From Haloarchaeobius sp. HME9146 (GTDB lineage: Archaea; Halobacteriota; Halobacteria; Halobacteriales; Natrialbaceae), in NCBI RefSeq assembly GCF_025399835.1, contig NZ_JAODVR010000001.1, forward strand, positions 3,038,001 through 3,102,000: a stretch of DNA of 64,000 nt, written 5' to 3'. Of the stretch, positions 5,903 through 63,036 are shown piece after piece. Under the pieces are notes generated by a model. The model made no database searches. It saw nothing but the letters and a program-made list of their open reading frames with translations, and was not told the origin of the DNA. The translations under genes and the position numbers were made by a program. How positions within the stretch are numbered: position 1 is the stretch's first letter; each line of letters starts with the position of its first letter.

Positions 5903-8900
5903 TCAGCACTCCGACCAGCCACAGGACTCGCAGGTCTTGCAGCCTTCGGAGTAGTACAGCGAGAGCGAGCCACAGTCGGGGCACTCGGGGCTCTCACCGG
6001 CCGCGATGAGGTCGTCCACCGCGTCGGAGGTGTGACCCGCATCGCTACCCGGCGTCTCTGCAGTCGTGGAGCCGCCGTCGGGCTCGTGGGACTGGGCCTT
6101 GCGCTGCTGCTCGGCCGCGGTCTCGTCGAGCGTCTTCTGCTGCGGGTAGGTGCGGTCGATCTCGTCGTCGAGGTAGCGCCGGAGGGCGGTCCCGAAGGCG
6201 TCCGGGATGGAGTTGATCTGTTCGCCCTTGTCCCAGGCGACCTTCGGCGAGCGGATGCCCTGGAGCTTGTCGACGACCTCGTTCGGGTCGACACCGGAGC
6301 GCAGCGCGATGGAGATGGTCTTCGCGAGCGCGTCGGTGAAGGAGTTCGTGAAGCCACCGGAGTGGCCGGTGTTCGCGAACAGCTCGAACGGTTCGGCCGT
6401 CTGCGGGTCCTCGTTGATGGTGACGTAGAGCTTGCCGTAGCCGGTGTCGATGCGCTGGGTGACACCGTGGAGCTGGTCCGGGCGCTCCTTCTTCTTGGCG
6501 TAGGAGCGCTCGCCACCGCCGACGATGTCTGCGACGTCGGCTTCGAGCTTCGCGCGGACGTCCTCGCTGTCGAGGAAGCCCTCGATGCCGCCGAAGGCCG
6601 CCTCTATCTGGTCGATGATGACCTCGGCCGCCTCGGCCTCGTCGGCGAAGTCGGCGTTGTCCGCGCGGGTCGTGAGGACCTGCTTCGAGCGGGTCCCGTC
6701 GCGGTAGACGGTGACGCCCTTGCCGCCGTTCTCGTAGATGTAGCGGTACACCTCGTCCATGTCCTCCATCGACGCGGAGTTCGGGAAGTTACAGGTCTTC
6801 GAGATGGCGGAGTCGACGCCCTCCTGGCAGGCACACTGGACGGCAGCGTGTTGCTTGCCGGTGAGGTCCTGCGTGACGACGAACAGTTCACCGATGGCGT
6901 TCGGGACGGTGTCGAGCCCTTCGACGCCGTCGAACTCGTTGGCTGCCATCTGCTCCTGTGCCTCTGCCTTGACGGCGTCGACGTCGATGTCGTTGGCCTC
7001 CAGGGTGCGCAGGAAGTAGTCGTCGAACTCGACGAGCATCTCGTCGCCCTGCACGTCGTCGGAGACGTTCTTGTAGTAGGCGACGTTGTAGATGGGCTCA
7101 CAGCCACCCGTGGTGTTGCCGACCATCGAGGTCGTCCCGGTCGGGGCGATGGTGGTCGTGTTGTGGTTGCGGATGGTGAAGCCGTCGGCCCACTCCTCGG
7201 GGTCGAGCCCGGTGTGGTGCTCGAACCAGTCGGGGTACTGCGTCGGGTTGGCGTACTTCGAGTCGTCCCAGTCGTTGAACGCGCCACGTTCCTCGGCGAG
7301 TTCGTGGGAGGTCCACTTCGACTCGTGGTTGATGTGGCGCATGAGCTGGCGGGCGACCTCGTTGCCCTCCTCGGAGCCGTACTTGATACCGAGCTGGATG
7401 TAGAGCTGGGCGAGGCCCATGACGCCGAGGCCGATCTTGCGCATGTCCCGGACCTTCTCCTCGATCTTCTTGACCGGGAAGTCCGACATCGTGACGACGT
7501 TCTCGAGGAAGCGCGTCCCGCGGTCGATGCGGTAGTCGAACTCCTCGAAGTCGATGGCCTCCTCGAGGAAGGCGGAGACGGCCTCTTCGTGAGAGTCGTA
7601 CTCGTCGGCGTGCTCGGCGGACCAGACGCGCCAGTCGGGTGCGTCGAGGTCGGCCAGCGTGGAGAGGTTGATGTGGCCCAGGTTACAGGCCTCGTACTCT
7701 TCGAGGGGCTGCTCGCCGCAGGGGTTCGTGGCGAGGATGCGGTGGTCGGGGTGCTCCTCCACGTCGAAGGAGTGCTGCTTGTTCACGCGCTCGAGGTAGA
7801 TGACGCCCGGTTCACCGTTCTCGTGGGCACCCTCGACGATGTCCTCCCAGATGACCTCGGCGGGCATCGACAGGACCTCGCCGACCTCGACGTACTCGCC
7901 GAGGCCGAACATCTCGTAGAGTTCCTTGGTCTCGGGCGTCGCGACGTGGGGTTCCTCGGTGCGCGGGTTGGTGAAGGTGAACTCCTCGTCGTTCTGGAGC
8001 GCCTCCATGAAGTCGTCCGTGACACCGACGGAGATGTTGAAGTTCGAGAGGTGACCTTCGACGGCGTTGCGGAGGTGCTTTGGCACCTTGCCTTCGTCGT
8101 CGATGAGTTCGCGGGCCTCTTCGAGGGCGTCAGCGAAGGAGGTGTGGGTGTAGTCGTCCGGGTCGTTCAGGCGGAGGGTCTGGGCGAGGGAGACGTCCTT
8201 GTTCTTCGCGTGGATGAACTGGATGACGTCGGGGTGCGAGATGCGCATGACGCCCATCTGTGCACCGCGCCGGGCCCCACCCTGCGCGATGGTCTCGCAC
8301 ATCTGGTCGAAGGTGCGCATGAACGTGATGGGGCCGGAGGCGATGCCACCCGTGCTGCCCACCGCGTCACCGTAGGGGCGGAGTCGCCAGAAGGCGTACC
8401 CCATGCCACCGCCGGACTGGAACACCTGGGCGGCCTCCTTGGCCGTCTGGTGGATGTCGTCGATGTCGTCGTCGGGCGAGTCGACGAAACAGGCCGAGAG
8501 CTGCTGGAGCTCGTCGCCGGCGTTCATCAGGGTCGGCGAGTTCGGCATGAAGTCGAGGTTCGACATCATGTCCTGGAACTCCTGGGAGACGGACTCGACG
8601 TGCTCGCGGATGTCCGCGGGCAGTTCGGGCACGACGGTGTCGTACGCGAACTTGTTCACGTTGTAGACGCTGAGTTCCGTTTCGGCGTCGTCAGCGAGCG
8701 AGGTCCCCATCCCGAAGACCTCCTCCGCGAGCTCGTCGCGGCGCGGGTGGTCCGGTTTGAGCTGGTCGGGCGTGACGGTGATGCTCACGTCCTGTTTCTC
8801 GGCCTCGTACACCGCCTCGGCGAGTGCGATGTTCTTGCCGACGCGCACGAAGAGGTCCTCCTGGGACTCGACGAGTTCGCCGTCGGCGTCCTTGCGGAGG

Positions 8901-9019
8901 TAGCGCGCGGGCAGAATGTTGTTGTACGCGTTGCTCGTGAGGCGGTCGGCGAGCGTCTCCCCGTCGGTCCGCTTGATGGGCAGCTGCAGGTCGTCGGCGG
9001 ACAGCTGGTGTTCGCTCAT
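5903..9019 (-). CDS. nrdJ: adenosylcobalamin-dependent ribonucleoside-diphosphate reductase (class II)
   Basis: This 1038-residue enzyme reduces ribonucleotides to deoxyribonucleotides using an adenosylcobalamin-derived thiyl radical. The active site is readable: N432-P-C434-G-E436 corresponds to the Asn/radical Cys/Glu loop of class II enzymes, C445 eleven residues later and C177 in LSACFVDS form the expected redox pair, and PTGTTSMVGN matches a conserved substrate loop. The C-terminus carries a Cys-rich zinc-ribbon/reductant tail (CPDCG, CKTCESCGWSEC). The start is ATG 9019, which overlaps the stop of a 24-codon leader ORF by four bases. No class I subunits are in the window. Confidence 0.97.
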   Translation of the reverse strand: MSEHQLSADDLQLPIKRTDGETLADRLTSNAYNNILPARYLRKDADGELVESQEDLFVRVGKNIALAEAVYEAEKQDVSITVTPDQLKPDHPRRDELAEEVFGMGTSLADDAETELSVYNVNKFAYDTVVPELPADIREHVESVSQEFQDMMSNLDFMPNSPTLMNAGDELQQLSACFVDSPDDDIDDIHQTAKEAAQVFQSGGGMGYAFWRLRPYGDAVGSTGGIASGPITFMRTFDQMCETIAQGGARRGAQMGVMRISHPDVIQFIHAKNKDVSLAQTLRLNDPDDYTHTSFADALEEARELIDDEGKVPKHLRNAVEGHLSNFNISVGVTDDFMEALQNDEEFTFTNPRTEEPHVATPETKELYEMFGLGEYVEVGEVLSMPAEVIWEDIVEGAHENGEPGVIYLERVNKQHSFDVEEHPDHRILATNPCGEQPLEEYEACNLGHINLSTLADLDAPDWRVWSAEHADEYDSHEEAVSAFLEEAIDFEEFDYRIDRGTRFLENVVTMSDFPVKKIEEKVRDMRKIGLGVMGLAQLYIQLGIKYGSEEGNEVARQLMRHINHESKWTSHELAEERGAFNDWDDSKYANPTQYPDWFEHHTGLDPEEWADGFTIRNHNTTTIAPTGTTSMVGNTTGGCEPIYNVAYYKNVSDDVQGDEMLVEFDDYFLRTLEANDIDVDAVKAEAQEQMAANEFDGVEGLDTVPNAIGELFVVTQDLTGKQHAAVQCACQEGVDSAISKTCNFPNSASMEDMDEVYRYIYENGGKGVTVYRDGTRSKQVLTTRADNADFADEAEAAEVIIDQIEAAFGGIEGFLDSEDVRAKLEADVADIVGGGERSYAKKKERPDQLHGVTQRIDTGYGKLYVTINEDPQTAEPFELFANTGHSGGFTNSFTDALAKTISIALRSGVDPNEVVDKLQGIRSPKVAWDKGEQINSIPDAFGTALRRYLDDEIDRTYPQQKTLDETAAEQQRKAQSHEPDGGSTTAETPGSDAGHTSDAVDDLIAAGESPECPDCGSLSLYYSEGCKTCESCGWSEC

Positions 9020-9090
9020 GCGGTCCCCTCCTCGCCCGCAGCAGGCTGCTGGCGGGCGATTTCGTCGTCGAAGCGTCGTGTCGATGTCAT
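9016..9090 (-). CDS. 24-residue leader ORF overlapping nrdJ
   Basis: A short frame from ATG 9090 encodes MTSTRRFDDEIARQQPAAGE followed by EGTA, and its TGA overlaps the nrdJ ATG as ATGA. A TATA-like TTTATG lies near 9125-9132 on the minus strand, far enough upstream that the transcript would include this frame. The arrangement suggests translational coupling or a regulatory upstream ORF. There is no homology evidence, and the frame is too short to judge by composition alone. Confidence 0.45.
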   Translation of the reverse strand: MTSTRRFDDEIARQQPAAGEEGTA

Positions 9091-9375
9091 CGGTAGTAGC
9101 GGAGTTTTGTTACTCTATGGTCCTTCATAAATGGACGGGTTACGGATTTCTTGGACTAATTCAACCGTACTTGTGTTACAGCATTGCCACTTTTCGAATG
9201 TATCACGTACCCGTGATGTAGCGGCACAGTCGGCAGGATGTCCTAATGGTTCGGTCGTTATAACCTCACTCAAACCAGAGTGAAAGTGTAAATTCGAGAA
9301 CCGCATCCGGAAGCGACTCCCGTCCCAATCAGTTTCGCCCACAGGCTTATGCCCCCATCGTGCGCCGTGTACTGC
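9091..9375. promoter_or_regulatory. divergent intergenic region upstream of nrdJ
   Basis: This stretch holds promoters for nrdJ (minus) and the small membrane-protein gene (plus, CTTATG near 9345). A perfect 6-bp inverted repeat, ATCACG/CGTGAT, lies at 9202-9217, and a CACTC/GAGTG hairpin lies at 9267-9282. I see no structure that I can identify as a cobalamin riboswitch and no further gene. Confidence 0.5.
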
Positions 9376-9630
9376 ATGTTGGAACTTCCAGGACTGGTCC
9401 CGATGCAACTTGGTGTAGAGACCATCGGGGGGATCGTCCTCCTCATCATCGCGCTCGTGGTCGTCTACAAGGTCATCAACCTCGCGTTCAGCATCGCGAT
9501 CAAGGTGCTCGTCATCGCCATCGCCGCTCTCGTCGTCCTGTGGGGACTCTCGCTCGTCGGCTTCAACCCGCTCGGGCTCCCCTTCCCGGGGTCGATCGCG
9601 GTCCCGGCGGAGACGGTCCTGCTCGGATAG
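9376..9630 (+). CDS. small two-helix membrane protein
   Basis: The 84-residue product begins MLELPGLVPMQLG and is mostly hydrophobic, with two adjacent membrane segments (GGIVLLIIALVVVYKVINLA and IKVLVIAIAALVVLWGLSLV) and a Pro-rich end (NPLGLPFPGS). I chose ATG 9376 because CTTATG lies about 28 bp upstream; an in-frame ATG at 9349 would fall inside that promoter. I do not recognise a family, and a membrane-structural role is the most that can be inferred. It converges with trpG, with only 9 bp between the stops. Confidence 0.75.
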   Translation: MLELPGLVPMQLGVETIGGIVLLIIALVVVYKVINLAFSIAIKVLVIAIAALVVLWGLSLVGFNPLGLPFPGSIAVPAETVLLG

Positions 9631-9639
9631 CAAAGGCGG

Positions 9640-10281
9640 TTACAGGTTTTCGAGGAAGTTGTCGATGATGTCGTGCCCACACGCCGTGAGCACCGACTCC
9701 GGGTGGAACTGCACGCACTCGATGGGGTACTCGCGGTGGCGCACGCCCATGACGAGCGGTTCGGCCCCGCCGTCGGTCGCCGCGGTGTCGACGCTGGCCG
9801 CGCCGACCGCGTGGTCCGCCGTGGCCGAAACCTCGAAGCAGTCGGGCACTTTCGTCGCGACGAGCGAGTGGTACCGGCCCGCCGAGAAGCCCTGTTCTAT
9901 GCCAGTGAACACGCCGCGCCCGTCGTGGTCGATGGGCCAGGCCTTGCCGTGAACCGGCTCGGGTGCCCGACCGATCTCCCCGCCGTAGGCGTACACCGCG
10001 GCTTCGAGGCCGAGGCAGACCCCCAGCGTCGGAATCTCGGTACTGAGTTCGCGGAACACGTCGAGGGTGACGCCCACGTCGCGCGGGTTCGCCGGATGGC
10101 CCGGGCCGGGCGAGACCACGATGGCGTCGGGCTCGAAGTCGCGAATCTCGTCCAGGCTCGCCGTGTTGCGCACGACCTTCGTCTCGGGGTCGTGGCCGCT
10201 CTCGATGAGCGACGATTCGACGTACTCGACCAGGTTGTAGGTGAACGAGTCGAAGTTGTCGACGAACAGGATGCGGGTCAT
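9640..10281 (-). CDS. trpG: anthranilate synthase component II (glutamine amidotransferase)
   Basis: The 213-residue class I glutamine amidotransferase releases ammonia for TrpE. The nucleophile Cys is in TLGVCLGLEAA, and the His-Glu pair is in CVQFHPESVL. The RAPEPVHGKAWPI segment is characteristic of TrpG/PabA proteins. The motif after the nucleophile reads CLGLE rather than the common CLGHQ. It is the last gene of the trp operon, and its ATG overlaps the trpE stop as ATGA, consistent with stoichiometric production of the two subunits. Confidence 0.95.
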   Translation of the reverse strand: MTRILFVDNFDSFTYNLVEYVESSLIESGHDPETKVVRNTASLDEIRDFEPDAIVVSPGPGHPANPRDVGVTLDVFRELSTEIPTLGVCLGLEAAVYAYGGEIGRAPEPVHGKAWPIDHDGRGVFTGIEQGFSAGRYHSLVATKVPDCFEVSATADHAVGAASVDTAATDGGAEPLVMGVRHREYPIECVQFHPESVLTACGHDIIDNFLENL

Positions 10282-11951
10282 CGCGACACCTCCTGGGAGA
10301 CCTGCACCTCGACCTGCCGGAGGGCTTCGAGCACCCCGTCCATCTTCTTCTCGGTCTCCTCGTACTCGCTGGTCGGGTCGCTGTCGGCCACGATGCCGGC
10401 ACCGGCCCGGACCGTCACACGGTCCTTACCGCCCGAAATCGCGCCCTTCTCGACCGTCGCGGTCCGGATGACGATGGCGAAGTCGGCGTCGCCGGTCCAC
10501 GAGTAGTAGCCGACGCCGCCGCCGTAGAGGCCGCGCGGTTCGTCTTCGAGGTCGTCGATTATCTCCATGGCGCGGATCTTCGGTGCGCCGGTGAGCGTCC
10601 CGGCCGGGAAGGCGGCGCGGGTCGCGTCGAAGGCGTCGTACTCCGCGGCCATCGTGCCGGTGACCGTGGACTCGATGTGCTGGACGTGGCTGTACTTGAG
10701 GACGTTCATGAACTCCTCGACGCGGACACTGCCGGGTTCGGAGACCCGGCGAACGTCGTTGCGCGCGAGGTCGACCAGCATGGTGTGTTCGGCGCGCTCC
10801 TTCTCGTCGGCGAGCATCTCGCCGGCGAGCCGACGGTCCTCGACGGGGCTGTCCCCGCGTGGGCACGTGCCCGCGATGGGGTTCGAGACGACGCGCTGGC
10901 CGCTCACGGAGACCAGAGTCTCCGGGCTGGCCCCGACGACGTGGAAGTCGCCGTGCTGGAGCAGGTACATGTACGGTGAGGGATTGACCTCGCGCAGGGC
11001 CGCGTAGAGCCCCATCGGGTCGCAGTCGCCGACGAGGTCGCGGGTCCGCGAGATGACGCCCTGGTAGATGTCGCCGTCGAGGACGTGTTCTTTCGTCCGG
11101 GCGACCGCGTCCTCGTAGTCCGCCTGCGAGCCCGCAGTGGCCGACTCGCGGACGAAGCCGCCGGGCTCGGGGTCGGCCGCGTCGGTGAGAAGCTCCTCGA
11201 CTCGGGCAGCCTCGCCGACGAGGACGTCGTACACGGCACCGGCGTCTTCGCCGTCGCGGATGACCGGCGTGAACACGAGCGACAGCTCGTCGGCGTGGTG
11301 GTCGAAGACGAGGGTCTTCGTGGCCAGCACGAATTCGGCATCGGGGAACCGTGAGTCGGGTCGGTCGACGCCGACCTCGTCGAGGAACAGGTCGTACACC
11401 GCGTCGTAGCAGAGGAACCCGACGAGCCCGCCGTCGAGATGCTGGCGGCCCGTCTCGGGGAAGCCGACGGGGGTGGCGTCGGGCATCGCCGACCGGAGCG
11501 TATCGAGGGTGTCACCCTCGACCGGGTCGACCAGTCCGGCATAGCGGTCGTCACAGAGCTCGACGCTGGCACCCTCGGGGCCGACCGTCACGACCGCGGC
11601 GGGGTCGTAGCCGACGAAGGAGTACCGGGCGTGGCGGTCCGCGTCGGTCCCGGCGCTGAAGGCACCGGCCGGGTCGCTGGAGGCCGTCTTCTCCGCGCTC
11701 TCGAGCAGGAATGCGTGGTCGGACTCCGTCGCACCGGAGAGCGCGGCGTACGCCCCCAGCGGGGTCGTCGTGTCGTCGAGGTCGAGCGTGGCCTCGACGC
11801 GGACCACTGCGGGATTGTCGGGGGCGGTCGCGTCCGCGACGAGCTGGACGAACGTCTCGCGGTCGGGGGCGAGCGTCGGTGCAGCGTTCGGCTGTTCGGG
11901 GGTCGACTGTTCGGCGTTCGACTGTTCCTCGTCCGGCTGTTCGTCGCTCAT
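10278..11951 (-). CDS. trpE: anthranilate synthase component I
   Basis: The 557-residue TrpE converts chorismate and ammonia to anthranilate. The C-terminal chorismate-binding region contains the family signatures NPIAGTCPRGDSP, LVDLARNDVRRV, SHVQHIESTV and FPAGTLTGAPKIRAME, and ends with GGVGYYSWTGDADFAIVIRT. The first 30 residues form a Gln/Glu-rich, probably disordered extension. The frame stays open much further upstream, but ATG 11951 is preferred because it overlaps the trpF stop as ATGA. Feedback binding of tryptophan is usual in the family, but I cannot confirm it here. Confidence 0.95.
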   Translation of the reverse strand: MSDEQPDEEQSNAEQSTPEQPNAAPTLAPDRETFVQLVADATAPDNPAVVRVEATLDLDDTTTPLGAYAALSGATESDHAFLLESAEKTASSDPAGAFSAGTDADRHARYSFVGYDPAAVVTVGPEGASVELCDDRYAGLVDPVEGDTLDTLRSAMPDATPVGFPETGRQHLDGGLVGFLCYDAVYDLFLDEVGVDRPDSRFPDAEFVLATKTLVFDHHADELSLVFTPVIRDGEDAGAVYDVLVGEAARVEELLTDAADPEPGGFVRESATAGSQADYEDAVARTKEHVLDGDIYQGVISRTRDLVGDCDPMGLYAALREVNPSPYMYLLQHGDFHVVGASPETLVSVSGQRVVSNPIAGTCPRGDSPVEDRRLAGEMLADEKERAEHTMLVDLARNDVRRVSEPGSVRVEEFMNVLKYSHVQHIESTVTGTMAAEYDAFDATRAAFPAGTLTGAPKIRAMEIIDDLEDEPRGLYGGGVGYYSWTGDADFAIVIRTATVEKGAISGGKDRVTVRAGAGIVADSDPTSEYEETEKKMDGVLEALRQVEVQVSQEVSR

Positions 11952-48949: not shown

Positions 48950-50215
48950 ATGTGGGGCTTTCAAGCGCGTGGACGGGCGGTCGACCGGCGCACAGTCCTG
49001 GCGGGTCTGGGACTGTCGCTCGGGTCGGGCTGTCTCCGTCTCGAGGAGGCGAACGCGACGGGCGAGCCGGGGACCGGAGCGACGGGGACCCGACGGCGCA
49101 CGACGCAGGGGACGCAGACCGCCAGTGCGACTGCCACCGACACCGAAACGGCGACTGCCGAACCGACGGACACGGCCGAACCGACGGACACCGAGACCGA
49201 GACGGAGACGGAGACCGACCCCGGTCCATCGCTCCAGCTGCGGTGGGAAGACCGGCGTCGAACGAAATACGGCGTCGCAGATGACGGACTCCTCATCAAC
49301 GCCTGGGATCACGGGGTGCAGGCGACGGAAGTCTCGTCGGGAGACACCCGCTGGGAACAGCGGTCGCTCGCGCGAATCGGGACGGACTGCGTTCCACTAC
49401 TGACAGACGACTACGTGTTCGCTGCCGGCCGGAACGAAGACGAATCGGGGAATCTCGTCCTGAAGATCGACCGTCGCAGCGGTGCGATTGTGGCCCAGAA
49501 CACCATCGAACGGATAACCCCGTTCATCGGGCAGCCACACCTCGCCGACGGCACCCTCGTCCTCGGTATCGAGACGTACAACGACAACGATACCCTGTAC
49601 ACCCTCGACGCCGATACCCTCGAAGTGACGTGGTCCGGCCAGCCGACCACGGAGCGATTCATCGGTGCGGCCGTCGTCGACGGATTGATCTACACGAACT
49701 TCTTCAACTTCGACGCCCTGTTCTCGTTTCCCGACTTCTCCCTGCTCTGGGAAGACGATGGTGCAGGCCTCGGCAGCCCGCCGGTGGCCCACGACGGGCT
49801 CCTCTATGTGCCGGGGGACTCCTGCGTTCGGTGTCTGGACCCGGCCACCAGGGAGACGCGGTGGAAATCGATGCGGTTCGGGCGGGCGGAGGCGATCCGG
49901 GTCGTCGAGGATACGGTCTTCGTCGGCAGTTCGACCTACGCCACGGCGTTCGACAGGGCGACCGGGGAGCTGCGCTGGCAGACCTCGGTCGGCCAGGACA
50001 CCTCGAATGGGCTTTCGCCCAACCGATTCGCCGTCGAAGCGGACCAGGGTCTCGTCTGGGGGCTCGGGAAGTACAACGTCACTGGCATCGATAGCACGAC
50101 CGGAGAGGTCGTCGGCCGGGGCGAAGTCGGTGAGTGGGCTGACTGGCTCGCGGCCGACGGCGACCGCGTGGTCGCCGGAAACGTCGACGGCAGGAAGTGC
50201 TATCAGGTGCCATGA
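48950..50215 (+). CDS. PQQ-repeat beta-propeller lipoprotein, copy 1
   Basis: The 421-residue protein has a Tat lipoprotein signal (VDRRTVLAGLGLSLGSGC, C28), a Thr/Glu-rich linker to about residue 95, and a beta-propeller of PQQ-like blades (TLYTLDADTLEVTWSGQP, VRCLDPATRETRWKS, TAFDRATGELRWQTSVGQ, VTGIDSTTGEVVGRGEVG). Such propellers on the outer membrane face bind proteins or cofactors; PQQ enzyme residues are not evident, so a scaffold is likelier. It is paralogous to the next gene, 85 bp downstream (shared LEVTWSGQP/LDLVWSGQP and SPPVAHDGLLYVPGD/GPPVAHEGTVYLPAD). Confidence 0.85.
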   Translation: MWGFQARGRAVDRRTVLAGLGLSLGSGCLRLEEANATGEPGTGATGTRRRTTQGTQTASATATDTETATAEPTDTAEPTDTETETETETDPGPSLQLRWEDRRRTKYGVADDGLLINAWDHGVQATEVSSGDTRWEQRSLARIGTDCVPLLTDDYVFAAGRNEDESGNLVLKIDRRSGAIVAQNTIERITPFIGQPHLADGTLVLGIETYNDNDTLYTLDADTLEVTWSGQPTTERFIGAAVVDGLIYTNFFNFDALFSFPDFSLLWEDDGAGLGSPPVAHDGLLYVPGDSCVRCLDPATRETRWKSMRFGRAEAIRVVEDTVFVGSSTYATAFDRATGELRWQTSVGQDTSNGLSPNRFAVEADQGLVWGLGKYNVTGIDSTTGEVVGRGEVGEWADWLAADGDRVVAGNVDGRKCYQVP

Positions 50216-50300
50216 ACGGCCACATCGCACTGGCGCATCCGAGAGACGACCGGCGGAACAGTCGGTATGAAGACACCAGATGGGTGAGAGGAGGTGTGAG

Positions 50301-51491
50301 ATGACGCGACGACGCACCGTCGTCTGTGGCCTCGCGTCGCTTCTCAGCGCCGGCTGCCTCCGGCTCCAAGACACCACCGAGGAGGCCGGGCCGGCCAGGG
50401 AGCCGTCGACGACGGGCGAACCCAGCAGTGTGAAGGCCGAGTCGACGACAAGTGTGAAGACCGAGTCGACGACGACCGACGTGACGCCGAAGGTGAAGGA
50501 GGTGTGGGAAGAGTCCCGGTACGGGCAGGCCGGGGTCGCCGATGGCACCGACCTCGTCACGACCCGGCGCGTCGGCGTCCAGGTGGCCGCCGTGTCCGAC
50601 GGGAGCAGGAAGTGGAACCAATCGGTCCCCGGTGACATCGAAGCTGCCTGTCTCCCGGTCGTGACGGACGAGTTCGTGTACGTCGCTGGCCAGGAGCGAG
50701 GGGCATCGACGAGCACGGTCAAGAAGTTCCGCCGGGACGGTGGTGCGCTGGCAGCCCAGGCCACGGTCGAACACTCCGAGAACTTCCACGGGGAACCGCA
50801 GCTCGTCGACGACCTGCTGGTCGTCGGCGCAGACCCCGGGCACGGTAGTGACCAGGACACGCTGTTCGCGTTCGACGCGGAGACCCTCGACCTCGTCTGG
50901 TCCGGCCAGCCCGTCAACGACCAGTTCGTCGGTGCGGTCGTGGTCGACGACACCCTGTTCGCCGGGTTCCACGGCTACGTCGGCGCGTTCTCGCTCCCCG
51001 ACTTCGAACGCGTGTGGGAGCAGGACCGCAGCGGCGCGACGGGCCCGCCAGTGGCACACGAGGGGACCGTGTACCTGCCGGCAGATACCGAGGTCCAGGC
51101 CATCGACGCGGCCAGCCGCGAGACCAGCTGGCGGACACCGATAAACGAACGGACCAGACACGCCCAGGCCGTCGGCGACACGCTGCTCGTCGGTGGAAGG
51201 TCGAACCTGTACGCGCTCGATACCGGCACGGGGTCTGTTCGCTGGCGGGGGCACATCGCCTCGGCGACGGACGATTCGAGCACCGCCGCCGGCCCGGAAG
51301 GTGTGGCAGTCCAGCCAGCGGCCGGCGTCGTCTGGGGCACCAGTGGTGCGACCGTCACTGGCATCGACATCGAAACCGGAGCCGTCTTCGGGACCATCGA
51401 GTTCCCCGAGCGCGCCCGGTGGGTGACCGCGGTCGGCAAGCGTCTCGCGGCTGGAACCGCCGAGCGAACGGCCGGCTACGTCGTCGAGTGA
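50301..51491 (+). CDS. PQQ-repeat beta-propeller lipoprotein, copy 2
   Basis: The 396-residue paralogue of the preceding protein has a short Tat lipoprotein signal (MTRRRTVVCGLASLLSAGC, C19), a Thr/Ser/Lys linker with a repeated AESTTSVKTESTT peptide, and PQQ-like blades (LFAFDAETLDLVWSGQP, VQAIDAASRETSWRTP, LYALDTGTGSVRWRGH, VTGIDIETGAVFGTIEF). The two genes clearly arose by duplication and diverged in the linker. GGAGGTG at 50290-50296 is a possible ribosome-binding site before ATG 50301. Function and partner are unknown. Confidence 0.85.
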   Translation: MTRRRTVVCGLASLLSAGCLRLQDTTEEAGPAREPSTTGEPSSVKAESTTSVKTESTTTDVTPKVKEVWEESRYGQAGVADGTDLVTTRRVGVQVAAVSDGSRKWNQSVPGDIEAACLPVVTDEFVYVAGQERGASTSTVKKFRRDGGALAAQATVEHSENFHGEPQLVDDLLVVGADPGHGSDQDTLFAFDAETLDLVWSGQPVNDQFVGAVVVDDTLFAGFHGYVGAFSLPDFERVWEQDRSGATGPPVAHEGTVYLPADTEVQAIDAASRETSWRTPINERTRHAQAVGDTLLVGGRSNLYALDTGTGSVRWRGHIASATDDSSTAAGPEGVAVQPAAGVVWGTSGATVTGIDIETGAVFGTIEFPERARWVTAVGKRLAAGTAERTAGYVVE

Positions 51492-54942: not shown

Positions 54943-56634
54943 ATGAATACGGTCGAACGCTGGAAACAGGAGAAGCACCCGCTCGACGTGCTCGACGACG
55001 TGCGGGAGTACGCCGCCGAAGGCCTCTCGTTCGCGGATATCGAGGAACGGGCCGGCGACGGCGAGTGGGAACGGCTGAAGTGGGCCGGGCTGTACGCCCA
55101 CGGCAACCATCGCGGCTACTTCATGCTGCGGACGAAGGTCCCCGGCGGCCGACTCACACCCGAACAGGCCAGGGTCATCGGCGAGGTCGCCACCGAGTAC
55201 GCGACCGCCCCGCCCGAACACGGTGGGAGCGACCAGAATCCCGTGTGGGGCGACGCCTACCTCGATATCACGACCAGACAGGACGTGCAGATGCACTGGA
55301 TCCGCATCGAGGACCTCCCCGAGATATGGGACCGCTACGACGAGGTCGGCCTGACGACGGTCCAGGGCTGTGGCGACTCCGCCCGGAACGTGCTGGGTTG
55401 TCCCGCGGCCGGACTGGACCACCACGAGTGCTTCGACGCCCAGCCGGTGGTCGACGCAGTCTCTGACTTCTTCACCGGGAATCGCGAGTACGCCAACCTG
55501 CCCCGGAAGTTCAAACTCACCATCACGGGCTGCCGGCACGACTGCGCGCAGTCCCAGATAAACGACCTCGGGCTCGTTCCGGCTCGCAGCGTCGTGGACG
55601 GTGAGGACTTCTACGGCTTTCACGTCCGGGTCGGCGGCGGTCTCTCCGACGGCCCGCGGATGGCCTCGGACCTCGACGTGTTCGTCCGACCCGAGGACGT
55701 AGTCGAGTTCTGTCGCGCCGTCGCCCAGACGTTCAAGGAGTTAGGCGACCGCCACAACCGCGGCGTCTGCCGGATGCGCTACCTCGTCCAGCAACTCGGT
55801 CCCGAGACGTTCGAGCAGGCGGTCCGGGACCGCTGCACGGTCGACCTCCCCGGCAGGGGCACCGACCTGACCGAGGGCTACCGCGGCGACCACGTCGGCG
55901 TCCACACGCAGAAAGACGACTCGCTCAGGTACGTCGGGTTCAACGTCGTCGCGGGCCGTATCGGCGGCGAAGAGTTCGCCGCGGCCGCCCGCGCCGCCCA
56001 GGCGTACGGCACCGAGGACGCGACCGTCAGACTCGCCACCGACCAGAACTTCCTCGTGAGTCACATCCCCGAAGACAGGGTCGACGACCTGCTCGCCGAA
56101 CCGTTTGCGGCGGACTACCAGCCAGACCCCGGCCCGTTCTCTCGCGGCGCGGTCGGCTGCACCGGCAGCGAGTTCTGCAACTACGGCATCATCGAGACCA
56201 AGCTCCGCATCCGCCGGTGGGCGAAGGCACTCGACGAACAGGTCGTCGTCCCGGATGACGTGGACGTGGTCAGGCTGCATCTGTCCGGCTGTTCCGCCTC
56301 CTGTGCCCAGCCCCAGATTGCGGACGTCGGCTTCCGCGGCGAGACCGTCAAGATCGACCGCGGCGGCGAGGGTGACGACATCGTCGAGGGTGTCGACTTC
56401 GGCCTCGGCGGGAGTCTCGGCAGCGACAACGAGTTCCTCGACTGGGTCGAGACCGCGGTGCCTGCGGACGCGGTGGTTCCCGCACTGGAACAGCTCCTGC
56501 AGGCGTTCGTGACCGACCGCGAGGCCGGCGAGCGCTTCTACCAGTGGTGCCGCCGGGTCGGCAACGACCGGCTTCGGCAGGTCATGCAACGGGCCGACGC
56601 GAACGTCTCGGGAGGTGTCGCACATGGCGACTGA
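54943..56634 (+). CDS. siroheme nitrite/sulfite reductase (NirA type)
   Basis: The 563-residue enzyme has the duplicated ferredoxin-like/siroheme architecture of assimilatory nitrite and sulfite reductases. The coupled siroheme-[4Fe-4S] site is C406 and C412 (CTGSEFC) with C450 and C454 (SGCSASCAQPQ). Arg and Lys siroheme-side residues occur in MHWIRIEDLP and KFKLTITGCRHDC. It performs six-electron reduction of nitrite to ammonia or sulfite to sulfide, and which one cannot be decided from sequence. The FrhB-type gene overlaps its end by 11 bp, implying a dedicated electron donor. Confidence 0.92.
   Translation: MNTVERWKQEKHPLDVLDDVREYAAEGLSFADIEERAGDGEWERLKWAGLYAHGNHRGYFMLRTKVPGGRLTPEQARVIGEVATEYATAPPEHGGSDQNPVWGDAYLDITTRQDVQMHWIRIEDLPEIWDRYDEVGLTTVQGCGDSARNVLGCPAAGLDHHECFDAQPVVDAVSDFFTGNREYANLPRKFKLTITGCRHDCAQSQINDLGLVPARSVVDGEDFYGFHVRVGGGLSDGPRMASDLDVFVRPEDVVEFCRAVAQTFKELGDRHNRGVCRMRYLVQQLGPETFEQAVRDRCTVDLPGRGTDLTEGYRGDHVGVHTQKDDSLRYVGFNVVAGRIGGEEFAAAARAAQAYGTEDATVRLATDQNFLVSHIPEDRVDDLLAEPFAADYQPDPGPFSRGAVGCTGSEFCNYGIIETKLRIRRWAKALDEQVVVPDDVDVVRLHLSGCSASCAQPQIADVGFRGETVKIDRGGEGDDIVEGVDFGLGGSLGSDNEFLDWVETAVPADAVVPALEQLLQAFVTDREAGERFYQWCRRVGNDRLRQVMQRADANVSGGVAHGD
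56610..56617 (+). promoter_or_regulatory. Shine-Dalgarno sequence for the FrhB-type gene
   Basis: GGGAGGTG ends 6 bases before ATG 56624, inside the end of the reductase gene. It decides the internal start and indicates leadered, coupled translation, which contrasts with the leaderless genes elsewhere in the window. Confidence 0.7.
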
Positions 56635-58234
56635 GGACGAGGAGCGGGGCGACGCCCCGGAGCAGTACGAGTCCGTGATTCCGGCCGACGTGGCCCCGGA
56701 GTTGACCGAACCGGGTGACGGCAAGCGAGAGCGTGACCCGGCCCCCGTCCCACACGTCCCCGAGACCGACCGGGACGCCGGGAACCCGACAGTCCCGACC
56801 GTTTCGACCAGTTCGTCAGGGGGTGACGCTGGCTGCTCCGGCGACACCTGCACCTGCGGCGACGCTGCCCCCGTCACCGACGGCGGCAGTCGCCCCGTGA
56901 ACGTCGATGCCGACGGGAGCCTCGGCGACCTCTCGTTCACCCGACCTGCCGAGAACACCAGCCAGAACGTCGACGACGGCGACCCCGCCACCCGGGTCCA
57001 GTTGCCGGACGGTGCAAGTCTGGAGACGCCACCCGCCGCCATCAGGAGCGAGATGAACGACATCGAGACGCCGGACGGGAAGACCTGGTTCATGGAGCTC
57101 GACGAGGCCGTCATCGACGAGGGGCGGTGCATCCAGTGTGGCACCTGCGTCGCGGCCTGTCCCTCGGACTCCATCGGCATCGGCGACGACGACCTCCCCG
57201 AACTCGTGAAGATGTGCACCGGCTGCTCGCTGTGCTGGGACTTCTGCCCCCGGGGCGGCCTGCGGTACGAGCGCCAGTGGACGATCACCGGCGGCGAGGA
57301 CAACGTGACGGGGGCGGGCGACCCAATCACCGAGTTCTCCGCCCGCGTCGACGAGGACTGGCGCGAGGGCGCACAGGACGGCGGCGTGGTCACCTCGGTG
57401 CTGAGCCACCTGCTCGCGGCGGGCGAGATAGACGGCGCACTCATCGCGACCGAGAGCGACGACGAGGAGTGGAAGGCCGAACCCTTCCTCGCGACCAGCC
57501 ACGAGGACCTGGTCGCGAATTCGGGGAGCTTCTACAACCAGACGATGGCACTGGGCAGTCTGGATCCCGAGCAGTGGGCCGACCAGCTTCCGGACAAAGA
57601 CCCCGAAGACCTCTCGCTCGCACTGGTCGGGACGCCCTGCGAGATAGAGGGCATCCGCGCCCTGCAGGACTTCGAGTGGGAGTACGGCGCACAGGAGGCC
57701 GGGGTGCGCGCCATCGACTACACCATCGCGCTGATGTGCACGAAGAATTTCAATTACTACTCCCTCATCGGCGAGCAACTGGCGGAGAAACGCGGCATCA
57801 GTCCTGCAGACATCGGGAAACTCGACGTGCTCCACGGGAAACTGCTGGCGTACGACCACGACGGTGACCTGCTCGTCGAGGAGGACGTGAAGAACTTCCA
57901 CGATGCCGCACTCAAGGGCTGTAGCGAGTGCGCCGACTTCACCGGCTACTGCGCCGACCTCACCGTCGGCTCCGTCGGGTCGAGCGACGAGTTCTCCAGC
58001 GTCATCGTCCGGACCGAGCAGGGGCTGAAGGCGTGGGAACTGACCGAACCCGACCTGGTGTCCCACGACCTCGAGGACCGTTCCGCCATCGGAAAGTTAC
58101 AGTCATGGGACAAGAAACAGGCGTTCGAGGCCCTGCAACGCCCCTTCGACCCGGACGCTCCGCGGTTCATCGAGTACACCGAACACGCCGAGTACTACGG
58201 GACGAGCCTAAATCCACACGAGCACGGGCACTGA
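56624..58234 (+). CDS. FrhB/FpoF-type F420-dehydrogenase subunit with two [4Fe-4S] motifs
   Basis: The 536-residue protein has an acidic linker of about 140 residues containing a small Cys cluster (GCSGDTCTCGD), then a 2[4Fe-4S] ferredoxin domain (C169-C172-C175-C179 and C198-C201-C204-C208). A coenzyme F420 hydrogenase/dehydrogenase beta-type domain follows (VTSVLSHLLAAGEIDGALIA, LVGTPCEIEGIRALQ, MCTKNFNYYSLI, CSECADFTGYCADLTVGSVG). The family uses flavin to move electrons between F420H2 and iron-sulfur centres. Overlap with the siroheme reductase suggests F420H2-driven nitrite or sulfite reduction. Confidence 0.88.
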   Translation: MATEDEERGDAPEQYESVIPADVAPELTEPGDGKRERDPAPVPHVPETDRDAGNPTVPTVSTSSSGGDAGCSGDTCTCGDAAPVTDGGSRPVNVDADGSLGDLSFTRPAENTSQNVDDGDPATRVQLPDGASLETPPAAIRSEMNDIETPDGKTWFMELDEAVIDEGRCIQCGTCVAACPSDSIGIGDDDLPELVKMCTGCSLCWDFCPRGGLRYERQWTITGGEDNVTGAGDPITEFSARVDEDWREGAQDGGVVTSVLSHLLAAGEIDGALIATESDDEEWKAEPFLATSHEDLVANSGSFYNQTMALGSLDPEQWADQLPDKDPEDLSLALVGTPCEIEGIRALQDFEWEYGAQEAGVRAIDYTIALMCTKNFNYYSLIGEQLAEKRGISPADIGKLDVLHGKLLAYDHDGDLLVEEDVKNFHDAALKGCSECADFTGYCADLTVGSVGSSDEFSSVIVRTEQGLKAWELTEPDLVSHDLEDRSAIGKLQSWDKKQAFEALQRPFDPDAPRFIEYTEHAEYYGTSLNPHEHGH

Positions 58235-58842: not shown

Positions 58843-59496
58843 GTGTTTCCCGACGAGATAAACACGCCGCGCCTGCAGTTGACGCCAGTCCGACCCGAAT
58901 CGGTCGACGTCGCCACCCTCCACGAACGGCTGTTCGACGCCAGCCGGCCGACGGTCGAGACCGAACTCCGATGGCTCCCCTGGGAGCCACATCACACGCT
59001 GAAGGAGACGTACGACTACATCCACGACTGCGGGCACCAGTGGGACGAGCGGGAACGCGCGACCTACTGCATCCGGCTGGGTGACGGGTTCGACGACGCC
59101 GGAGCCAGCATCGGCATCACCTACCTCGACTGCTTCTGGCCGCGCCGGACCGCGGAGATGGTGATGTGGACCCGGAAGGACCACTGGAACCAGGGGTTCA
59201 TGACCGAGTACGGGAAGGCGATTCACGACCTCGGCTTCTGTGACCTCGGGTTCGACCTGATGATCGCGGACGCCATCGACGGGAACGACCACGCCTACAA
59301 CATCTTCGAGCACATGACCGAGGCGTTCGACGGCCAGTACGATGGCCTGTTGCGAAACTGGCTCCCCGACGGTCAGACGGTCCACGACGTCCACCGGTTC
59401 AGTATCACCCGACAGCAGTACCGGGCCGCGATGGGCTACGTGGACGAGGCGGCGGTCGAGACGGAGCCGGAGACGCACCCGGCCACCCTGGACTGA
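58843..59496 (+). CDS. GNAT acetyltransferase, RimJ/RimL-like (outlying paralogue)
   Basis: The 217-residue protein starts FPDEINTPRLQLTPVRPESV, a typical RimJ/RimL beginning, and has MVMWTRKDHWNQGFMTEYGK where the family acetyl-CoA loop lies, although the usual R/Q-x-x-G-x-G/A is degenerate (WNQGFM). It shares HRFSITRQQY with the three tandem GNATs downstream (HRYTITREQY and variants). It probably acetylates an amino group on a small molecule or protein; the substrate is unknown. GTG 58843 is supported by the TATA box. Confidence 0.85.
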   Translation: MFPDEINTPRLQLTPVRPESVDVATLHERLFDASRPTVETELRWLPWEPHHTLKETYDYIHDCGHQWDERERATYCIRLGDGFDDAGASIGITYLDCFWPRRTAEMVMWTRKDHWNQGFMTEYGKAIHDLGFCDLGFDLMIADAIDGNDHAYNIFEHMTEAFDGQYDGLLRNWLPDGQTVHDVHRFSITRQQYRAAMGYVDEAAVETEPETHPATLD

Positions 59497-59588
59497 CCGG
59501 CGCGACGCACGGAGCCACCGGTCAGGTCGTGCCACAGGCGCGCGTGCTCGGACGGAGCCATTAAGCATCGGCACGCGGAATCGCCGGT

Positions 59589-61046
59589 ATGCCAATCGAC
59601 ACCGGCTGGGACCTCCCGGCGACGACCGCCGTGTCGTTCGACCCGCCGGCCGCAGCCATCGGCGTGAGCGACGCCGACGCGTTTCGTGACGCCTATGCAG
59701 TCTTCTTCCGGCGCGAGCTCGCGACCAACCTCGAGCGCGACCTCGACAACGACGCGCTCCACCGCATCGCGAACCGACTCAAGACGCTCTCGTGGCGGCC
59801 CGCGTTCGCGCAGTACGACCACCCGAACAGCGCCGACGAGCTGACCGACCTCACCCGTCTCGTGCAGGCGTACGCCAGGGCGGGAGCCGACCTTCGCCCG
59901 TCGGCACGACCGGACTACTGGGCGCACGACGACACCCGCGACTGGGTCGAGGAGACCGTCACCGACTGCGAACACTGCGAACAGCGCGAGCTGTCCGTCG
60001 TGACCGGCGAGGCTCTCGCCTACCACGTCTGCGAGGGACACCACCGCGAGGCCATGCAGCGATTCGTCGAGGCCACCCGCACCACGGCAGAGCCGCCCCA
60101 TCCCGACGAACCGTTCGACCTCGCGGAGCGACTCGACGCCGAGGAGTTACCCACAGATGCGGCGCAACGACTCGCCGAGATCGGGGCGTACGACCCGCAC
60201 GCCGTCCGACCGGTCACCGAGAGCCTGCTCCGGGCGTTCGAGTCCCAGCGTGGGGCCGTCGTGGTCTCCCGCGAGTTCCTCCACCCGGTGACGACCACGC
60301 TGACCCACCTCGGCACCATCGACGGGCAGGTCCGCGAGCGATTCGTCGCCTCCCTCGCGGACGACGACGCACCGATTCGACAGGCGAGCGCCGCCGCGGT
60401 CGCCTCCCTCGCCTGGGAGCGCCCGGACGCGCTGCTGGCGGTCGACGACAGCGTGGTCGTGCCCCGTCTCGTCGCCATGCTCGACGAGGACGACCCCGAT
60501 TCGCGGGCGCTCGCGCTCTCGGCCCTGCGCGAGTTCGCCCGGTCCCACGCCCACGTCGTCGAACCGTACACCAGCCGCGTGGCGGCTGTGCTGGACTCCG
60601 ATGCCGGCCCCGCGGTCCGGTTCCTCGCGGGTATCACCCTCGCGAACCTGACGCTGGGCTCCCCCGTCCTGGGTGCGCGCCGGGCCGACCGCTTCGAGAG
60701 CCTGGCCTGCGGGACGGGTGCTGGCGTCCTGGCCGGCCTCGTCGGCCTCTACTACCTCGACGCCGCGGGCTACGACGTGCAGGCATCGCTCCAGGCAGCA
60801 GCCGAGGCCGCGGAGGGAACCCCAGAACCGGTTCCCGACCCACTGGCCGACCCGGCCGCCGTCGTCCGGTGGTACGCCGACCCGACGCGGCACGACCGCC
60901 GAACCGTCCGCGAGGCGGTGTACGCGCTGGGCCACCTCGGCGGCCCGGGCGAACTGGACTACCTCGACTGGGTGGACGCCTGCGCCCGCGACGACGCGCT
61001 CCGGACCGCCTGCGAGACCGCGCGGGATCGGCTGTTCGTGACGTAG
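59589..61046 (+). CDS. HEAT-like helical repeat protein with Cys/His module
   Basis: The 485-residue cytoplasmic protein begins with about 115 residues of helices, then a candidate zinc site (CEHCEQREL with YHVCEGHH), and then ARM/HEAT-like helical pairs (VRERFVASLADDDAPIRQAS, AVASLAWERPDALLAV, ALALSALREFARSHAHVVEP, VREAVYALGHLGGPGELDYL). Such solenoids bind proteins or nucleic acids. I do not recognise the specific family. A perfect hairpin (61047-61063) directly follows its stop. It sits between the first GNAT gene and the GNAT tandem array. Confidence 0.82.
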   Translation: MPIDTGWDLPATTAVSFDPPAAAIGVSDADAFRDAYAVFFRRELATNLERDLDNDALHRIANRLKTLSWRPAFAQYDHPNSADELTDLTRLVQAYARAGADLRPSARPDYWAHDDTRDWVEETVTDCEHCEQRELSVVTGEALAYHVCEGHHREAMQRFVEATRTTAEPPHPDEPFDLAERLDAEELPTDAAQRLAEIGAYDPHAVRPVTESLLRAFESQRGAVVVSREFLHPVTTTLTHLGTIDGQVRERFVASLADDDAPIRQASAAAVASLAWERPDALLAVDDSVVVPRLVAMLDEDDPDSRALALSALREFARSHAHVVEPYTSRVAAVLDSDAGPAVRFLAGITLANLTLGSPVLGARRADRFESLACGTGAGVLAGLVGLYYLDAAGYDVQASLQAAAEAAEGTPEPVPDPLADPAAVVRWYADPTRHDRRTVREAVYALGHLGGPGELDYLDWVDACARDDALRTACETARDRLFVT

Positions 61047-61137
61047 CGTGGCTGGAAGCCACGACAAAAAGCGTGGCTGGCGGCCGCCCAAACCGTGGGC
61101 GAGCCATGACCTGTCACACCCCGAGAACGCTTTTTGT
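61047..61137. repeat. nested inverted repeats after the HEAT-like gene
   Basis: CGTGGCT-GGA-AGCCACG (61047-61063) is a perfect hairpin abutting the stop codon. ACAAAAAGCG (61064-61073) and CGCTTTTTGT (61128-61137) form a perfect 10-bp inverted repeat with 54 bp between. The distal arm overlaps the expected TATA position of the GNAT gene at 61161. A terminator, a small RNA or an operator are all possible. Confidence 0.6.
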
Positions 61138-61160
61138 ACTCCCACGAGAACCCGCCAGGC

Positions 61161-61784
61161 ATGCACCTGTTCCCCACCGCGTTCGAGACCGAACGCCTCC
61201 GCTACGAGCGCCTCGACCAGTCCGTCGACGTGTTCGAGCTGTACGACGTGATGAGCCAGCCGGGGTTCGGCGACACCGTCGAGCACATCTCGAAGTCTCA
61301 GCACCACACGCCGAAGGACACCTTCGACTACCTCGGCGAGAGCGCGGAGAAGTGGGAGGAGGCCGACCGGGCGAACTGGGCGATGTTCCCGAAAGACGGC
61401 GAGGAGGGCACGGGGGAGTTCGCCGGCGTCGCCTCGCTCATCCCGCTGTGGGACCGCCGGACTGCCCGCCTGGGCGTCTGGCTCCGCGAGGAGTTCTGGG
61501 GCCGTGGCTACTCCGGCGAGCGCGCCGACGCCCTGGTCAACCTCGCGTTCGACCGCTTCGACCTCGACCTCGTCGCGGCCGCCCACACCGACGAGAACGA
61601 CGCCTCGAAGCGCGCCATCGAGAAGTACGTGGAACGCTGGGGCGGCCAGTACGACGGCATCCTCCGGAACTGGGTCGTCCTCGACGACGAGCCGCGTGAC
61701 CTGCATCGGTACACCATCACCCGCGAGCAGTACGACGCGGCCGATGTCGCGGTCGAGGTGACGGTCCACGAGGGCGGGGAATAG
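61161..61784 (+). CDS. GNAT acetyltransferase, tandem copy 1
   Basis: The 207-residue RimJ/RimL-type acetyltransferase has LFPTAFETERLRYERLDQSV at the start, the acetyl-CoA loop FWGRGYSGERADALVNLAFD and the C-terminal HRYTITREQYDAADV. It is followed 2 bp later by a paralogue of exactly the same length, and the loop region (61494-61532) is almost identical in DNA to those of copies 2 and 3. The substrate is unknown. I chose ATG 61161; a CTTTTTGT element lies about 27 bp upstream. Confidence 0.88.
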   Translation: MHLFPTAFETERLRYERLDQSVDVFELYDVMSQPGFGDTVEHISKSQHHTPKDTFDYLGESAEKWEEADRANWAMFPKDGEEGTGEFAGVASLIPLWDRRTARLGVWLREEFWGRGYSGERADALVNLAFDRFDLDLVAAAHTDENDASKRAIEKYVERWGGQYDGILRNWVVLDDEPRDLHRYTITREQYDAADVAVEVTVHEGGE

Positions 61785-61786
61785 CG

Positions 61787-62410
61787 ATGGCCGACCTGTT
61801 CCCTGACAGCTTCGAGACCGACCGCCTGCGCTTCGAGCGCGTCGGGCTCGACACCGTCGACACCCTCGACGTCTACCCCTACTACTCCACCGAGGAGGGT
61901 ATCGAGCAGGCGACGCAGTACATGACCTGGGAGCCCCACCAGACGCCGAAGGAGACGTGGGAGTTCGTCCGGGCGATGGGTGACCGTGCCGATGCGGGCG
62001 ACGGGAAACTGTACGCCCTGTACCCGAAGGCCGGCCAGAACGGGGCGGGCGAGTTCGCCGGTACTGCGGGCCTCCACCCCGACTGGGACCGCCGGAGCGT
62101 CACCTTCGGGATGTGGCTCCGCAAGCCCTTCTGGGGCCGGGGCTACTCCGGCGAGCGCGCCGACGCCTTCGTCACGCTCGCGTTCGACCGCCTCGACCTC
62201 GACCTCGTCGCCGCGACGGTCCTCGACGAGAACGAGCAGTCGAAACGAGCCATCGAGAAGTACGTGGGCAGGTGGGGTGGCCAGCACGACGGCTACTTCC
62301 GCAACCTGCAGACCCACGGCGACGACCCCGCGAGCGTCCACCGCTACAGCATCACCCGCGAGCAGTACGAGGAATCGGACGTGGACGTTGCGCTGACCAT
62401 CCAGGACTGA
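61787..62410 (+). CDS. GNAT acetyltransferase, tandem copy 2
   Basis: The 207-residue paralogue begins LFPDSFETDRLRFERVGLDT and has FWGRGYSGERADAFVTLAFD at the acetyl-CoA site and HRYSITREQYEESDVDV near the end. It lies 2 bp after copy 1 and 2 bp before copy 3, so the three are almost certainly one transcript. The middle part (YYSTEEGIEQATQYMTWEPH) diverges from its neighbours, which suggests different acceptor substrates. ATG 61787. Confidence 0.88.
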   Translation: MADLFPDSFETDRLRFERVGLDTVDTLDVYPYYSTEEGIEQATQYMTWEPHQTPKETWEFVRAMGDRADAGDGKLYALYPKAGQNGAGEFAGTAGLHPDWDRRSVTFGMWLRKPFWGRGYSGERADAFVTLAFDRLDLDLVAATVLDENEQSKRAIEKYVGRWGGQHDGYFRNLQTHGDDPASVHRYSITREQYEESDVDVALTIQD

Positions 62411-62412
62411 CC

Positions 62413-63036
62413 ATGACCGACCTCTTCCCCGACCGAATCGAGACCGAGCGCCTGACCCTGGTCCACGAGTCGCCCGACTCGACGGACGTGTTCGAACGAT
62501 ACGAGCCGATGAACACCGAGAACGCGAGTCCCGACGCGTTCGAGCACATCCCCATCGAGCCCTTCGACCACCCCCAGGAGGCCCGCGAGTTCCTCGCCTC
62601 GCGGAACGACCGCTGGGCCAGCGGGAACGCCGGGACCTACGTCGTCCGTCCGAAACCGGGCGAAGACGGTGCCGGGGAGCCAGCCGGCGAGGCCGAGCTG
62701 TTCGCCCTCTGGGACCGCCGGACCGCGTACTTCACCTTCGGCCTGCGCAAGCCCTTCTGGGGTCGTGGCTACTCCGGCGAACGCGCCGACGCCTTCGTCG
62801 TCCTGACCTTCGAGCGCCTCGACCTCGAGATGGTGTCGGTGTCCCACACGGTCGCGAACGAGCAGTCGAAGCGAGCCATCGGGAAGTACATCGACCGCTG
62901 GAACGGCCAGCGCGACGCCGTACTCCGGAACGGGCACGTCATCGACGGCGAGCCACACGACGTGGTCCAGTACAGCATCACCCGCGAGGATTACGAGGCG
63001 AGTGACGTCGACCCTGACGTGCGATTTTTCGGGTGA
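62413..63036 (+). CDS. GNAT acetyltransferase, tandem copy 3
   Basis: The 207-residue paralogue begins LFPDRIETERLTLVHESPDS and has FWGRGYSGERADAFVVLTFE at the acetyl-CoA site and VQYSITREDYEASDVDPD at the end. The acceptor-side segment (NTENASPDAFEHIPIEPFDH) differs from copies 1 and 2. It is the last gene of the array; 115 bp of gene-free DNA separate it from the convergent sod gene. ATG 62413. Confidence 0.88.
   Translation: MTDLFPDRIETERLTLVHESPDSTDVFERYEPMNTENASPDAFEHIPIEPFDHPQEAREFLASRNDRWASGNAGTYVVRPKPGEDGAGEPAGEAELFALWDRRTAYFTFGLRKPFWGRGYSGERADAFVVLTFERLDLEMVSVSHTVANEQSKRAIGKYIDRWNGQRDAVLRNGHVIDGEPHDVVQYSITREDYEASDVDPDVRFFG

Follow-up and report, generated by a model that had tools for sequence, protein, structure and literature searches.

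Several archaeal enzymes join the oxidation of reduced cofactor F420 (F420H2) to a siroheme reductase. In group I Fsr of methanogens (PDB 7np8, 7npa), a ferredoxin domain and an FrhB domain with a third-cluster motif PC-Xn-C-Xn-C-X2-C are followed in one chain by a single-repeat, Dsr-like siroheme half with an inserted ferredoxin domain. FsrII (FNiR) of ANME-2c is likewise an F420-dependent siroheme reductase, fused and Dsr-like, and is nitrite-specific with F420H2 (PMC9295563). A third type, a putative F420H2-dependent assimilatory sulfite reductase (aFsr), was predicted in haloarchaea by Susanti & Mukhopadhyay in 2012; it consists of aFsr-alpha, a siroheme subunit of the kind found in assimilatory sulfite reductases, and aFsr-beta, an F420H2 dehydrogenase subunit homologous to Fsr-N, and several haloarchaea are among the sequences in the tree legends of that paper (PMC3448663). 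The same group still termed aFsr putative in 2022 (PMC9295563), and we found no experimental report on it in the literature searched. Here we analyze a window of 64,000 nucleotides from Haloarchaeobius sp. HME9146 (contig NZ_JAODVR010000001.1, positions 3,038,001 to 3,102,000), in which the gene of a NirA-type reductase overlaps that of an FrhB-type protein. A preliminary description of this DNA had proposed a two-protein, F420H2-driven counterpart of Fsr, a core idea that is well supported but had been published as the aFsr prediction. The pair is a further member of the predicted family and is not new in kind: it has the same aSir-type alpha, the same Fsr-N-type beta (FrhB with two N-terminal [4Fe-4S] clusters) and comes from the same taxon group, and nothing essential differs. 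To that prediction we add the active-site class, gene-order statistics, linkage to cofC and cofG, and a sister type with rhodanese domains. Judging from the sequence, we think it fairly probable that the two genes encode an aFsr complex of an F420H2-oxidizing beta subunit and a sulfite-reducing siroheme alpha subunit.

The alpha gene (54943..56634, forward strand) encodes a four-domain siroheme/[4Fe-4S] reductase of 563 amino acids. Its Pfam domains NIR_SIR (3e-53) and NIR_SIR_ferr (1e-31) both occur as repeats, which identifies the two-repeat assimilatory type, and the Pfam scan gave no Fer4 match in alpha. The siroheme-[4Fe-4S] ligand region, C406-X5-C412 ... C450-X3-C454 (56158..56304, forward strand), is kept in every family member covered, and these four cysteines fit the CX5CXnCX3C motif given for aSir and Fsr (PMC10229431). 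The AlphaFold2 model of alpha has a predicted template modelling score of 0.88 and matches NirA and NiR structures over its full length; the top fold match in PDB is 1zj8, the NirA of Mycobacterium tuberculosis. This sulfite reductase of the ferredoxin type shares the active-site Cys and Lys of alpha but has no FrhB partner. The beta gene (56624..58234, forward strand) encodes an FrhB-type F420H2 dehydrogenase subunit of 536 amino acids counted from its ATG, as assigned from Pfam (FrhB_FdhB_C 1.5e-31, FrhB_FdhB_N 2e-20, Fer4_21 6e-10) and from the closest solved structures. Unlike group I Fsr, the pair thus combines a separate two-repeat NirA that lacks a ferredoxin domain with a beta subunit that bears a long acidic N-terminal extension.

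Alpha and beta are separate open reading frames in different frames and not one fused polypeptide. They overlap by 11 bp between the beta ATG and the alpha TGA (56624..56634, forward strand), just as the preliminary description had them. A strong Shine-Dalgarno sequence for beta, GGAGGTG, is also present, although it does not lie inside the overlap as had been claimed: it occupies the last alpha codons (56611..56617, forward strand), 6 nt ahead of the ATG.

Beta carries the complete set of cluster cysteines expected of an F420H2-oxidase half. Two [4Fe-4S] ferredoxin motifs, C169/172/175/179 and C198/201/204/208 (57110..57256, forward strand; Fer4 matches), precede the FrhB N- and C-terminal domains, which form the flavin/F420 module and include the third-cluster motif P-C339-X32-C372-X60-C433-X2-C436 (57338..58039, forward strand; Pfam). 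The latter parallels PCX40CX54CX2C of cluster 1 in Fsr (PMC10229431). All twelve cysteines, corresponding to the three [4Fe-4S] sites of the F420H2-oxidase half of Fsr, are invariant among 42 sequences. Long conserved stretches are common to beta, Fsr and FrhB; the structural model of beta is too weak to place FAD and F420 contacts residue by residue. The acidic extension covers residues 1-152 (56624..57079, forward strand) and includes a conserved block at about residues 88-152, which is missing from the short FrhB proteins described below and is a candidate segment for docking on alpha. The extension also contains a C-x4-C-x-C motif of Cys71, Cys76 and Cys78 (residues 71-78, window positions 56834-56860), a segment that is Cys-rich in 69 of 81 family members and possibly an extra metal site.

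In order to determine how widely this gene arrangement is conserved, we scanned species genomes and obtained 80 beta loci; every one is haloarchaeal, and at least 35 named genera are represented. At 79 of the loci beta is immediately preceded by an alpha gene in the same orientation, so the adjacency exceeds chance; conserved adjacency was one of the checks that the preliminary description had suggested. The sole exception, a lone beta gene at locus L112, is found in an assembly that also has a complete pair (L102). The overlap measures 11 bp in 33, 8 bp in 24 and 35 or 38 bp in 16 of the 79 relatives (73 in all), the longest class being possibly mis-started since start codons were picked by rule. 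A Shine-Dalgarno-like motif precedes the beta start in 36 of the 74 overlapping cases, as against 6% of shuffled leaders. In a phylogenetic tree the FrhB-coupled alphas form a clade of their own (support 100/100), apart from the NasD and uncoupled Nir2 paralogues, and residues T64, K/R65, A/V147 and D/N200 are private to them. It has to be considered whether alpha is instead served by free ferredoxin, beta being a separate F420 enzyme whose only tie to alpha is co-expression; NirA homologues elsewhere, as well as Nir2 and NasD here, do manage without an FrhB partner. With an overlapping adjacency that is nearly absolute, and a distinct clade with private residues, we regard this explanation as very improbable.

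The FrhB family, aFsr and its rhodanese sister taken together, occurs in 126 of 391 sampled species of the class (about one third) and was not found in those Haloarchaeobius genomes that were sampled, so its distribution is patchy. The genome of Haloferax volcanii likewise yielded no match to the FrhB family. Two aFsr copies are plasmid-borne (L090, L117), and one Halorubrum laminariae contig carries two apparently near-identical copies about 41 kb apart (L113 and L114). When flanks of 34 loci were clustered, the neighbors were otherwise mainly housekeeping genes (SRP54-type GTPase, prefoldin, eIF6).

The closest solved relatives of beta are a component of an F420-reducing CO dehydrogenase (8riu_B, 3e-54) and Fsr (7np8, 1e-53), together with Fsr 7npa and 9tn7, a component of an F420-reducing formylmethanofuran dehydrogenase complex (8rja) and FrhB. 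Additionally, in eight of the 80 loci (L044, L045, L059, L060, L068, L082, L115 and L116) alpha is immediately preceded, on the same strand, by homologs of cofC and cofG, which serve in F420 biosynthesis, with 204-682 bp between the end of cofG and alpha. These loci belong to Halobacteriaceae and Haloferacaceae (two from Halarchaeum, two from Halegenticoccus, one each from Halobonum, Halogranum and Salinigranum, and one metagenome-assembled genome). At L115, the one locus scanned against NCBIfam, both proteins score above the equivalog cut-offs. About 0.14 such loci are expected by chance; shared ancestry means that the eight are not independent events, but even two independent events would have a probability of about 0.008. 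In at least L045 and L115, cetZ adjoins cofC/cofG. The genome of the window itself encodes CofD, CofE and the NADPH:F420 oxidoreductase npdG.

These observations bear on whether beta uses F420 at all. The FrhB fold also serves in plant HCAR, which takes electrons from ferredoxin. HCAR shares the fold of beta (5dqr, 2.5e-14) and beta has a full ferredoxin domain, so that beta might act as an adaptor that passes electrons to alpha from ferredoxin or another carrier. In sequence, however, HCAR is much more distant from beta (3e-5) than the F420-dependent enzymes are (3e-54), and the cofC-cofG linkage and the F420 genes of the same genome both speak against an adaptor, which we therefore hold to be decidedly unlikely; F420H2 is the predicted donor.

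The preliminary description had left the substrate as nitrite or sulfite. We compared active-site residues with those of known enzymes on the basis of alignment, PDB titles and general knowledge. Tyr51, Cys143, Ala147 and Lys191, encoded within alpha codons 51-192 (55093..55518, forward strand), are present in all 78 aFsr-alpha proteins that cover them, among the 79 loci and the window. The genome of the window has three NirA-type genes, namely the window alpha, nasD and an uncoupled nir2. NasD, which adjoins NasA, an MFS transporter and MobA, has Phe, Gly, Met and Asn at the four positions. Paralogs from 20 further genomes fell into four residue classes, including a rhodanese type with Tyr/Cys/Val/Lys and the Nir2 class with Tyr/Cys/Trp/Lys. 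Plant nitrite reductases align with Phe, Gly and Asn at the Tyr, Cys and Lys positions; Asn226 of the tobacco enzyme aligns with Lys191, and 3vlx is described as its N226K mutant. M. tuberculosis NirA has Cys and Lys at the matching positions, and the title of the study on it (Schnell 2005, cited in PMC11237513) describes it as a sulfite reductase that contains a Cys-Tyr bond; Tyr51 of alpha would be the crosslink partner. Haloarchaeal NasD and plant ferredoxin-nitrite reductase share the four-domain NIR_SIR fold with alpha but differ in having Phe/Gly/Asn for Tyr/Cys/Lys, a NasA neighbor in the case of NasD, and no FrhB partner.

Taken with the separation in the tree, this residue class favors sulfite. 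The competing explanation is an F420H2-dependent nitrite reductase resembling FsrII of ANME, used for nitrogen assimilation or nitrite detoxification. Alpha does belong to the NirA family, its closest whole-chain sequence matches in PDB are plant nitrite reductases, FsrII with F420H2 reduces nitrite and not sulfite (PMC9295563), and Fsr too reduces nitrite (PMC10229431). On the other side, alpha scores 392.7 bits against PRK09566 (ferredoxin-nitrite reductase), below the NCBIfam equivalog cut-off of 594 bits, and the Tyr/Cys/Lys residues are uniform throughout the family where NasD has Phe/Gly/Asn. No NasA was found near any of the 80 aFsr loci, and NasA sits with the other paralog, NasD, in the genome of the window; we therefore rejected a linkage of aFsr to nitrate assimilation. 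A nitrite-reducing enzyme is thus unlikely, and nitrite is the less likely main substrate. The original alternative narrows accordingly: the evidence points to sulfite and away from a nitrite role linked to NasA. In three sampled genomes (G208, G199, G136) aFsr-alpha is the only siroheme reductase.

Several points nevertheless weigh against a sulfite-reducing, F420H2-driven complex. The preference of ANME FsrII for nitrite over sulfite has been ascribed to the electron-delivery module and not to the pocket (PMC9295563), so that the pocket of aFsr does not by itself decide its substrate. The AlphaFold2 model of beta is of low confidence (mean predicted local distance difference test score 57), and the cofC-cofG linkage is limited to eight loci in few lineages. 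As for the source of sulfite, ATP sulfurylase PF01747 was not found in the genome of the window, where there are only CysD-like proteins below the cut-off, and the genome has a second sulfite-type NirA (L008). The last two circumstances, like the fusion of rhodanese domains in the sister system, would also suit an enzyme that acts on another sulfur substrate (thiosulfate, trithionate or sulfane sulfur) or serves mainly to detoxify sulfite instead of assimilating it. Thiosulfate is, however, accepted neither by MtFsr (PMC10229431) nor by FsrII (PMC9295563), and aFsr-alpha itself lacks a rhodanese domain; we consider such a role quite improbable.

The sister system consists of short FrhB proteins of about 420 amino acids. 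At the four loci examined (L127:3954-7626; L128:6964-11010, reverse strand; L130:3931-7597; L131:7558-11451, reverse strand) each of them is directly preceded by a rhodanese-NirA fusion of about 800-930 amino acids. Haloarchaeal rhodanese-NirA fusions were noted in a 2024 survey (PMC11237513), and a literature search for such fusions together with F420 returned nothing relevant beyond it. Tentatively, and with more doubt than confidence, we suggest that haloarchaea may have a family of F420H2-driven sulfur reductases to which the rhodanese-siroheme fusion with its short FrhB protein belongs; this second type might reduce protein-bound or sulfane sulfur. A further short beta-like FrhB protein (L129:6804-8087, reverse strand) is 68% identical to the core of aFsr-beta; its neighbors are an FAD_binding_2 flavoprotein (8462-9886, reverse strand) and an SDR protein (10113-10931, reverse strand), with no NirA, and it may be an F420 module that works with a different protein.

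Elsewhere in the window, the PPOX-fold gene downstream of beta had been put forward as a further F420 protein. Its family matches are weak (Pyridox_ox_2, NimABCDEF) and no homolog was found near any of the 80 aFsr loci, so that this proposal lacks support and the gene was rejected as a component of aFsr. Downstream of it, positions 58843-63036 hold four or more related genes for GNAT-like acetyltransferases, arranged nearly in tandem. Positions 48950-51491 encode two adjoining, similar proteins of secreted type that resemble beta-propeller repeats and are tandem duplicates.

We propose that beta would bind FAD and oxidize F420H2, reducing the flavin, and that electrons would pass from FAD to the [4Fe-4S] cluster of the FrhB domain, on to the two ferredoxin clusters and into alpha. 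The siroheme-[4Fe-4S] center of alpha would then carry out the six-electron reduction of sulfite to sulfide; nitrite is probably a side substrate. Overlapping translation may supply alpha and beta in matched amounts, and F420H2 could be regenerated by npdG, encoded elsewhere in the genome.

According to a 2021 review, only one F420-dependent reaction had been reported from halophilic archaea to the reviewers' knowledge, and the importance of the cofactor in them was enigmatic (PMC8305020). The aFsr pair offers a concrete, testable candidate role for this poorly understood haloarchaeal F420. It would represent an unfused, NirA-based analog of Fsr, built from a different siroheme reductase. If a wider family of F420H2-driven sulfur reductases exists, F420 would have a major use outside methanogens, and the gene order cofC-cofG-aFsr would be explained.

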